64,000 nucleotides of DNA, taken from assembly GCF_008801925.2 (NCBI RefSeq), contig NZ_CP062805.1, forward strand, positions 1 to 64,000, read 5' to 3'. Within the stretch, counting starts at the first letter, position 1. Each line of letters opens with the position of its first letter. This document shows positions 1,221 through 2,999 of this stretch, piece by piece. The translations under genes were made by a program, and so were the position numbers. The notes beneath the pieces were generated by a model. That model ran no database searches. It had not been told where the DNA came from and worked only from the letters and a program-made list of their open reading frames with translations. Source of the DNA: Cupriavidus basilensis. Its GTDB lineage: Bacteria > Pseudomonadota > Gammaproteobacteria > Burkholderiales > Burkholderiaceae.

Positions 1221-1308
1221 TGGTGGGCCGGGTGGGATTTGAACCCACGGTGTCCTCTCGGAGGCGGATTATGAGTCCGCTGCCTGCAACCAGCACGGCG
1301 TCCGGCCC
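1221..1308 (-). tRNA. tRNA with CAU anticodon and long variable arm (isotype unclear)
   Basis: The minus strand folds into a full 88-nt cloverleaf with encoded CCA. The acceptor stem is GGGCCGG paired with CCGGCCC (7 bp, perfect). The D arm is GCC/GGC, the anticodon stem is GCGGA/UCCGC with loop CUCAUAA, and the T arm is GUGGG/CCCAC with loop UUCAAAU. The discriminator base is A. The anticodon is CAU, normally tRNA-Met or tRNA-Ile2. The variable region is 15 nt and can form a small CUC/GAG hairpin, a class II trait of Leu, Ser and Tyr tRNAs. Position 8 is A instead of the near-universal U. The perfect helices argue that it is expressed and folded. Which amino acid it carries cannot be read from the sequence. 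Confidence 0.85.
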
Positions 1309-1481: not shown

Positions 1482-2999
1482 CTAAAGAACGTTGTCCTGA
1501 CTATTCGCACGGCTGCGGGCAGCCTTCCTCAGCTCACCGGCCACAAATGAACAGAATGAAGTGGCAATATTTGGTCGCTCCATAATGTTCTTTGCGTTTA
1601 TGTCCGCAGGTTTGAGACCTTGACGCTCGATCGTTCGCGTCCCAATCGTCTTCGTCGTGACGAACTTACGGACTAGGTCTTCACGGGTCGTCATCTCGGC
1701 GCTCTCAAAATAGTCTCGAGCCGCGCGGACTTCCTCCAGCCTGCGACGCTCTGCGGCGGCGTCTGCCGCTGCAACGCTCGCCGCGACCGCGGTCTGCGCA
1801 GCAGACTTCGATTCGACTTCCTCCTTAGCCTTGTCTGCGAGCTTGGCTTGAACTCTCTCAACTTCCTTGTCTGCTTCGGAAACGCGATAGTCGTTTGCGA
1901 TTGCATCCAACAAATAGCCTGATGCTCGCTTGACCTTGTCACCGGAACGGATACGCCATCGAACGTATTCGATAGCCTGCTGAATCCTCTCATCCGTCCA
2001 GACGCTGCGGTTATCCGCGATTCGCTCGAACTGAGAGTCAGTCAGTGCAAACTCCTTCTCCAATGCCTGGAAGAGCGCCACCGAATTAAGCATGGCCGCT
2101 TTGGACGCCAGGGCGGCATCCTTTCGCTTCATCTGGAAACGAATCTGGTCTTTCTTCCTAGACCGGGGTGTCCCCGCACGGGTCTCATAGGACAGTTCAA
2201 TGTCGGAAAGCTCGTTGATTTGGCTTACTGCTTTGTCAAGGTAGTCACGCTTGAAGTACTTGAACTCCGCGTTATTGGCCCATGACTTGCCCGGTAGATT
2301 CCGCACAACATCGAGGGGCAACCAGTCCGTCCGCTCGTCCGATACGTTGGGCAGGATGTGGTCATAGATGGCGCGAGCGTAGATGAGCGTGAACTTCGAC
2401 GTGACCAGAAGGCTCGTCCAATACGAATTCTCCGGGTCTTTGATGAGCCGTTGAAGCTCTACAGGGACACGGAATCGAATCCGTCCGTCCCTCACACTGA
2501 CCCGACCGATCAATTCGAGCCAGTCGCCCTCTTCGTCTGAGACCCGCACGGTATCGACATCAGGATTGCGGGCATCGCTGTCAGTCTCGTCGCCGTCATG
2601 TGCCGCACCGGGGCTTTCAAGGAGACGGCCGCTCGCGTCCACCGACACAACGGGTGCGCTGGTCACTTCGAGCATCGACGACTTCACGCTGCGAATAACG
2701 CTCGAAAAGTGTTTCCTGTTCTTGCTGTCATAGCGCATCAGCCATTTGAAAAAGCTTAGCGAGACTTCGTAGCCTTCCTTGACCTCGGGTTCCTGCGCCA
2801 CGATAAAGTACGCAGCGTCGACAAACCGGCGAGCGGACATCCCCAGTCCGACAATGCGAGCGAAGACCTTGTTTTTGTGGTAGCCAATATCCTTGTCGGT
2901 GGCGACCTCATGTATGGCTGTCTGTGCGGGCGCCATCTCGACGAATAAGTCGAGCGCGTACTGTAGTGGTGTCACCCGCTTTGCTACGCTGCTTGCCAT
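1482..2999 (-). CDS. Plasmid replication initiator (Rep_3-like)
   Basis: A 505-residue protein resembling the Rep_3 / RepA-RepB initiators of Burkholderiales megaplasmids and chromids, which bind iterons and open the origin. Residues about 10-290 carry the winged-helix initiator region; this includes the stretch FFKWLMRYDSKNRKHFSSVI and the segment around TDWLPLDVVRNLPGKSW. Residues about 370-440 are Ala- and charge-rich and probably coiled. The start at 2999 has an AGGA motif about 9 nt upstream. Just upstream lies a block of inverted and direct copies of GGTGAGAGATTTTGT, the expected binding sites, and parAB is transcribed away on the other side of the origin. The repeat block and position make the initiator role fairly secure; the exact Rep subfamily is less so. 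Confidence 0.85.
   Translation of the reverse strand: MASSVAKRVTPLQYALDLFVEMAPAQTAIHEVATDKDIGYHKNKVFARIVGLGMSARRFVDAAYFIVAQEPEVKEGYEVSLSFFKWLMRYDSKNRKHFSSVIRSVKSSMLEVTSAPVVSVDASGRLLESPGAAHDGDETDSDARNPDVDTVRVSDEEGDWLELIGRVSVRDGRIRFRVPVELQRLIKDPENSYWTSLLVTSKFTLIYARAIYDHILPNVSDERTDWLPLDVVRNLPGKSWANNAEFKYFKRDYLDKAVSQINELSDIELSYETRAGTPRSRKKDQIRFQMKRKDAALASKAAMLNSVALFQALEKEFALTDSQFERIADNRSVWTDERIQQAIEYVRWRIRSGDKVKRASGYLLDAIANDYRVSEADKEVERVQAKLADKAKEEVESKSAAQTAVAASVAAADAAAERRRLEEVRAARDYFESAEMTTREDLVRKFVTTKTIGTRTIERQGLKPADINAKNIMERPNIATSFCSFVAGELRKAARSRANSQDNVL

Follow-up and report, generated by a model that had tools for sequence, protein, structure and literature searches.

A class II tRNA with a CAU anticodon on a Cupriavidus plasmid, probably a tRNA-Ile2 from a mobile family that replaced the class I gene in several Burkholderiaceae genera

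The stretch analyzed here (the window, the first 64 kb of a 425-kb contig of Cupriavidus basilensis) contains a single tRNA gene, placed by ARAGORN on the minus strand at 1221-1308 with the anticodon CAT and labeled tRNA-Met. The gene lies between a helix-turn-helix open reading frame and a Rep3-type replication initiation gene, with parA and parB further out (Table 1), and the matched parts of the first 8 kb of the contig are identical to plasmid pMTS2 of Cupriavidus sp. P-10. A preliminary description made from the DNA letters had reported a class II tRNA beside a replication gene, and the neighbor is indeed the Rep3-type gene.

Table 1. Features of the tRNA gene and its neighbors in the window
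Feature	Position	Strand	Basis
Class II tRNA, anticodon CAU, 88 nt including encoded CCA; read as tRNA-Ile2 of a mobile class II family	1221-1308	-	ARAGORN, RF00005, fold, family alignment
Acceptor stem, 5' strand GGGCCGG	1302-1308	-	Sequence; G3-C70, C4-G69, and C5-G68 are TilS determinants in the excerpt of PMC12514573
A8, forming with U14 (1295) a flipped 8-14 tertiary pair	1301	-	Sequence; columns 8 and 14 invariant in an alignment with most rows picked by D-arm motif
D arm, 3-bp stem and 12-nt loop; family signature	1282-1299	-	Pattern searches and family alignment
Anticodon arm GCGGA-CUCAUAA-UCCGC, mostly inside a 19-nt identity with host class I tRNA-Ile2	1264-1280	-	Comparison with host tRNAs
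Anticodon CAU; C34 is the expected lysidine position	1271-1273	-	ARAGORN
Variable region, 15 nt; 3-bp stem of 1260-1262 with 1253-1255, tetraloop 1256-1259	1249-1263	-	Alignment: 100% of cells paired, 3 of 3 pairs changed on both sides
T arm; a common family variant has 22 nt identical to host tRNA-Ser(CGA)	1232-1248	-	Comparison with host tRNAs
A73 and encoded CCA	1221-1224	-	Sequence
Helix-turn-helix protein gene of the plasmid backbone	1-1197	+	Pfam MarR/HTH_36; gene order kept in C. oxalaticus and P-10 plasmids
Rep3-type replication initiation gene	1482-2999	-	Pfam PF21205

The stems of this tRNA are complete, with the acceptor stem paired at 7 of 7 positions, a D-stem of 3 bp, and anticodon and T-stems each paired at 5 of 5, and the stem of its 15-nt variable arm is closed by a GAGA (GNRA) tetraloop. 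The gene matches RF00005 at 1224-1308 (minus strand) with 46.7 bits (E value, 8.3e-07; gathering cutoff, 29). Its minimum-free-energy fold (-42.6 kcal/mol) consists of the five stems and one further D-loop helix, with a z score of -3.15 and 1 of 200 shuffles folding at least as well. In the position numbering assigned here, the 8-14 pair is A8-U14 instead of U8-A14. The CAU anticodon, the 15-nt arm, and A8 had all been listed in the preliminary description and are seen in the sequence, and U14 is added here. Because the 15-nt arm and the A8-U14 pair do not fit class I architecture (a variable loop of 4 to 5 nt and U8-A14), the gene is termed a class II variant of tRNA-Ile2. Complete stems, an encoded CCA, the Rfam score, and the covarying family described below all support the earlier view that this is a real and probably functional class II tRNA. 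A consensus scan of 1100-1500 returned no sigma-70-like promoter or terminator, which is weak evidence either way.

The search of plasmid databases for the same 88-nt sequence that had been proposed at the outset recovered the identical 88-mer or close relatives in other records. Thirteen plasmid records had a match to the window tRNA, and in the 10 that were opened, ARAGORN called a complete class II tRNA-CAU at seven loci, a class I CAU tRNA at two, and, at one (L036), only the 3' part of a class II tRNA, which adjoins a phage integrase gene. Class II relatives were found on plasmids of Cupriavidus, on chromosomes of Burkholderiaceae, and in IMG/VR viral contigs. The class II pattern occurred in 80 of 398 Burkholderiaceae genomes, representing 4 of 25 genera, and in 2 of 398 Pseudomonadota genomes, both members of that same family; a longer pattern (positions 7 to 74) confirmed 79 of the 80, with the 3' part only in the other (G220). 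Viral contigs yielded 96 matching stretches (of 80 inspected, many but not all have the family D arm), and a scan of named genomes yielded at least 119, with most of the 80 examined belonging to this family in Paraburkholderia, Ralstonia, Trinickia, and Cupriavidus. A D-arm search allowing up to 3 mismatches gave mostly chance matches among the matches listed. A link with named phages found no support: when the window tRNA and one viral tRNA were compared by blastn to 50,697 phage records, all matches were partial and none covered more than 80% of the query, most of them falling under annotated tRNA-Lys, -Leu, or -Asn genes.

An alignment of 33 distinct sequences (31 of the 44 distinct 88-mers plus two viral sequences with another base 7) had standard pairs in 99.2% of paired cells and changes on both sides in 15 of 23 pairs. 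The covariation score was 0.377, compared to 0.102 in shuffles; kinship among the aligned sequences inflates such scores, and the signal was lost when pairing partners were slid. The three pairs of the variable stem occur in four, four, and three forms. A73 is present in all 33 rows, position 20a is U or C, and CAU is accompanied by A37, A38, and A73, the loop having been included in the search pattern. Because most rows were found by their D arm, the constancy of that arm is in part a product of the selection. Since the 88-mer and its close relatives recur and the variable stem covaries, chance or a sequencing error is excluded, and the fallback offered earlier, an ordinary Met or Ile2 tRNA with an error in the variable loop, is at odds with a long arm that is both conserved and covarying.

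Parts of the tRNA resemble different host genes. The T arm of the common family variant shares 22 identical nucleotides with host tRNA-Ser(CGA), and the anticodon arm shares 19 with class I tRNA-Ile2, a pairing of resemblances that weakly suggests a chimeric origin of the class II family. In overall arm similarity to host tRNAs, Lys(CUU) scored 37 of 48, and Ser(CGA), Lys(UUU), Leu(CAA), and Ile2 scored 36 of 48 each, a sequence comparison that does not single out Ile2.

Across several Burkholderiaceae genera, at the rpoD-linked site, the class II gene took the place of class I tRNA-Ile2, the ileX-type gene, which in E. coli also lies near rpoD. In the contexts read from Paraburkholderia, Ralstonia, and Trinickia, the class II gene is downstream of rpoD. 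Upstream homologs of dnaG were seen in 16 loci and of rpoD in 16, with either or both in 18 of 20 chromosomal contexts; of the remaining two, L201 is a partial context and L212 is another locus. Among 30 genomes in which the site downstream of rpoD was surveyed, it was occupied by class I tRNA-Ile2 in 17, by an interrupted class I gene in 12, and by a class II gene in 1 (G231).

Genus tallies were obtained by crossing the class II pattern table by eye with a class I signature table. All 59 Paraburkholderia genomes had one or the other and never both (class II in 48, class I signature in 11). Ralstonia (n = 16) had the class II gene in 10 genomes, the class I signature in 4, and neither in 2, one with a 76-nt-type class I match (G165) and the other a 90% complete genome (G151). 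Trinickia (n = 11) had class II in 7, the class I signature in 1, and a 76-nt class I gene in 3. The class II pattern occurred in 15 of 59 Cupriavidus genomes (14 in full), and since the class I 5' signature was present in 59 of 59, the class II copy is usually redundant in that genus. Every one of the 65 class II genomes outside Cupriavidus carries the gene from position 7 to 74; the class I signature was found in none of them, versus 16 of 21 others (Fisher test, p = 2e-13). A wider class I pattern had no match in 63 of the 65. In controls lacking the class II gene it matched in 8 of 15, and six of the seven misses are intron carriers, because the insert hides the pattern, the seventh being the 90% complete G151. 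Two class II Paraburkholderia genomes (G248 and G379) additionally contain class I tRNA-Ile2 within a Gly-Ser-Ile2 tRNA array. By these exact or near-exact pattern searches, which a very different AUA reader would escape, 63 of the 65 genomes with a resident class II gene have no other candidate for reading AUA.

In the 11 class I Paraburkholderia genomes and one Trinickia genome (G114), an insert of 248 to 304 nt separates U33 from C34 in the anticodon loop of class I tRNA-Ile2 (L285 to L288, L290, and L292 to L298), and the 3' half of the gene was found 248 to 304 nt further on in 12 of 12 cases. With an E-value threshold, the insert matched a group I intron model, below Rfam's cutoff, at each of 4 loci examined, with one match being partial; at the gathering cutoff, it was not called an intron in three loci. 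Group I introns in tRNA-Ile2 are named for Acidovorax and Burkholderia in the excerpt of PMC8450103. The inserts lie in the same gene and the same anticodon loop as those introns, and each of the 59 sampled Paraburkholderia genomes has one of the two, insert or class II gene; in the sampled Paraburkholderia and Trinickia, the intron-bearing class I gene is present instead of, and never together with, the class II gene.

In other records, members of the class II family act as integration sites, and at one locus the family arrived with an element that entered the class I gene. In a Cupriavidus genome (G231), the rpoD-side class I gene breaks off in its anticodon loop, at GCGGACTCATAAT, and is followed by other DNA. 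Counted from the first base of the class I fragment, an intact class II tRNA begins 233 bp further on, and the class I 3' half, with the same core, ACTCATAAT, lies 47.9 kb away; ARAGORN found no further tRNA in the 54-kb stretch. At the right end, the adjoining open reading frame matches a PHROG integrase over residues 14 to 327 (E value, 8.5e-17), with no Pfam model match. This layout indicates that the class I gene was split by a 48-kb island with an intact class II tRNA as cargo, making G231 the one locus at which a split target, an intact tRNA inside, and an integrase at one end were found together, as in replacement-tRNA elements. A second class II copy is on contig C3 of this genome. The same core also serves as a cut site in class II genes, as in G143, where a second 3' part lies 3.65 kb away, and several elements hold only a 3' part starting near the anticodon loop (L036, L081, L119, L140, L051, and L360). 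The G231 island (C1:2440001-2494000; L335 to L337) also encodes an SNF2/DEAD helicase, an Eco57I-type methylase, a GmrSD-type endonuclease, and a sacsin-domain protein, a gene set that looks like a defense cluster.

TilS, the enzyme that modifies tRNA-Ile2, was found above the cutoff in 35 of 35 genomes, 17 of which have class II without class I. No candidate tRNA-Ile(UAU) was found in the 35 genomes, the one match being a tRNA-Cys stretch, and the class I CAU tRNAs of the 17 were of Met and fMet types, plus four odd matches resembling neither. In the excerpt of PMC12514573, the acceptor determinants of TilS are C4-G69 and C5-G68 for E. coli, with G3-C70 in addition for B. cenocepacia, whose TilS also requires the D-loop of its tRNA. 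The window copy has all three acceptor pairs. Over the 33 alignment rows, C4-G69 is present in 31, C5-G68 in 29, and G3-C70 in 31, and some family members have U5-A68, U5-G68, or A4-U69 in place of these pairs.

Codon meaning was assessed by comparing a Ralstonia genome with class II only (G024) to one with class I (G144) over 238 orthologous pairs and 90,176 codons. The 48 aligned ATA codons face I in 24 cases, V in 15, M in 5, S in 2, T in 1, G in 1, and L in none, so that 44 of 48 face Ile, Val, or Met. In 19 of the 48, both genomes have ATA, which carries little information on meaning; the 29 positions with a differing partner codon face V 15, I 5, M 5, S 2, T 1, and G 1. As a control, CTA with a differing partner codon faces Leu in 95 of 103 cases. 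A first run with half the data (21 ATA codons) gave a similar trend, and 25 AUA codons were counted in the first 94 gene pairs of G024. Other comparisons were small and mixed: Paraburkholderia G315 against Burkholderia G011 aligned only 4 ATA codons (I 2, L 2), and cross-genus runs aligned 4 in all, none facing Ile (G315 versus G144, C, M, and L; G024 versus G011, R). Judged by the G144 orthologues, AUA positions of G024 appear isoleucine-like.

Because the family sits at the rpoD locus where class I is absent, with TilS present and AUA positions resembling isoleucine, the window tRNA is very probably a class II tRNA-Ile2, likely lysidinylated, charged with isoleucine and reading AUA, from a mobile family that replaces the class I gene. 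Building on the observed structure, covariation, replacement pattern, TilS presence, and split class I gene, the host TilS would add lysidine at C34, IleRS would charge the class II tRNA with isoleucine, and the modified tRNA would decode AUA as isoleucine. The window copy would be expressed, and the family would move on plasmids, integrative islands, and probably phages. The preliminary description had left CAU as either Met or lysidine-Ile, and the genomic evidence favors the latter. An additional Met elongator, with an unmodified C34, charged by MetRS and adding methionine capacity at AUG, would agree with the ARAGORN label and with CAU and A73, which suit MetRS. However, Met elongator and fMet tRNAs are already present in the 17 checked class II genomes, which on this reading would be left without an AUA reader, although G024 uses AUA; all 17 retain TilS, which would be left without another known substrate; and Met faces only 5 of the 48 AUA codons. 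Such a role is therefore very unlikely.

The earlier proposal of a leucine or serine identity, with AUG or AUA read as another amino acid, fared worse. In this proposal, LeuRS or SerRS would read the long arm and not the anticodon, and a Leu, Ser, or Tyr tRNA with CAU would misread AUG or AUA; the long variable arm, A73, the 22 nt shared by the T arm of the family variant and host tRNA-Ser(CGA), and the 2 of 4 ATA codons facing Leu in the small G315/G011 comparison all lean this way. Serine tRNAs carry G73 (PMC7609411, in excerpt), whereas this tRNA has A73. For leucine, A73 and a large variable region agree with the excerpt of PMC9976931, but A20a and a normal tertiary core are missing, and U14 and U20a are not among the determinants in that excerpt (A20a for bacteria; U8:A14 listed for eukaryotes). 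Moreover, none of the 48 aligned AUA codons of the class II-only genome faces Leu and 2 face Ser, tRNA-Ile2 occupies the same locus in related genomes, and the aligned AUA codons mostly face Ile, Val, and Met, which leaves reassignment of AUA or AUG without support and this identity highly improbable. An equally slim chance goes to a nontranslational role, in which plasmids keep the gene as a relic attachment site or as a decoy for anticodon nucleases or tRNA-cutting toxins. Such a role would suit the elements that hold only a 3' part starting near the anticodon loop (L036 beside a phage integrase) and the Cupriavidus copies that coexist with class I genes; however, plasmid copies too form a complete, covarying cloverleaf, and no other candidate AUA reader was found in 63 of 65 genomes from three further genera. 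A nontranslational role accounts for the persistence of some copies and not for the function of the family.

For the class II tRNA-Ile2 family, a more speculative proposal, which we consider rather unlikely, is that a mobile tRNA of foreign class captured an essential decoding slot, with replacement serving as tRNA-based addiction. Elements would cut class I tRNA-Ile2 in the anticodon loop and supply a class II tRNA-Ile2; the element-borne tRNA would become the AUA reader, making the element hard to lose; the flipped core and long arm might resist integrases, introns, or tRNA-cutting toxins that hit the old gene; and the element would then decay, leaving the class II gene alone beside rpoD, as in most sampled Paraburkholderia and Ralstonia. 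The addiction part is weakened by the second class II copy in G231 and by class II genes cut at the same core.

The host of the window has a complete class I tRNA-Ile2 gene at rpoD, and because this gene is intact, the window copy is a redundant spare or else ready cargo. An AUA-rich plasmid needing its own tRNA was considered and found no support: ATA occurs 4.0 times per 1,000 codons in mechanically called window open reading frames and 3.4 times in chromosomal loci of the same genome, and it makes up almost the same fraction of Ile codons (0.086 and 0.088, respectively). The window's own plasmid also has a relic of class I tRNA-Ile2 (G000:C3:296135, L512; pMTS2 counterpart at 133819, L505) with three nucleotides gone at the anticodon loop and the first base changed, at which ARAGORN called no tRNA; pMTS2 has a plasmid-borne rpoD gene about 2.9 kb from the relic. 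On pHG1 of C. necator H16, an intact class II copy lies at about 194 kb (L034, around 8996), with a decayed class I-like 3' part about 4 kb from it, and the class II copy beside the replication gene (L514) is degenerate.

To our knowledge, the only tRNAs with long variable arms are those for Leu, Ser, Tyr, and Sec, and we know of no tRNA-Ile with such an arm and A8-U14. With these class II tRNAs the gene shares the long variable arm, the 3-bp D-stem, and a T arm like that of host tRNA-Ser(CGA), but it has an Ile2-like anticodon arm, a flipped 8-14 pair, and a variable stem of only 3 bp with 4 unpaired nucleotides on its 3' side. With class I tRNA-Ile2 it shares CAU, the CUCAUAA loop, A73, the chromosomal locus, a presumed role as TilS substrate, and, in most members, G3-C70, C4-G69, and C5-G68; it differs in having a 15-nt arm with a stem, a 3-bp D-stem, and A8-U14 in place of a variable loop of about 5 nt and U8-A14. 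Tycheposons are phage- or island-borne replacement-tRNA elements. Like them and like an integrating Rhizobium phage that carries a tRNA-Leu (PMC8631192, in excerpt), the G231 element enters a tRNA gene and supplies an intact tRNA, but the tRNA it brings belongs to a different structural class from the one destroyed, and in many genomes that type of tRNA is the resident gene.

No report of a class II tRNA-Ile2 was found in open-license PubMed Central in titles and abstract starts among the matches listed; Silva et al., cited in PMC5143459, reportedly studied CAT-anticodon tRNAs and may mention class II CAU genes. Because ARAGORN labels the class II gene Met, these genomes can seem to have no AUA reader. 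A natural class II isoleucine tRNA, if confirmed, would test the real requirements of IleRS, TilS, and EF-Tu and would be an unusual scaffold for AUA decoding, and an essential translation gene would have been replaced by a mobile version in recognizable steps.

Class II CAU tRNAs with other D arms were seen elsewhere, including on viral contigs (L078, L107, L109, L129, L136, and L137, which by eye also have A8 and U14, and L084, L089, L108, L118, L145, and L149) and in MAGs; the records of L108 and L118 each contain two class I CAU tRNA-like matches. Cyanobacterial examples called by ARAGORN have an unrelated D arm (L369 and L422 in Chamaesiphon, L370 in Okeania, and L430 in Microcoleus). Finally, two loci of genus g9 (L291 and L299, both downstream of rpoD) and one of Caballeronia (L038) have a class I tRNA-CAU with A8, a short variable loop, and acceptor and T arms like those of the class II family, possibly a shortened class II gene or an intermediate.
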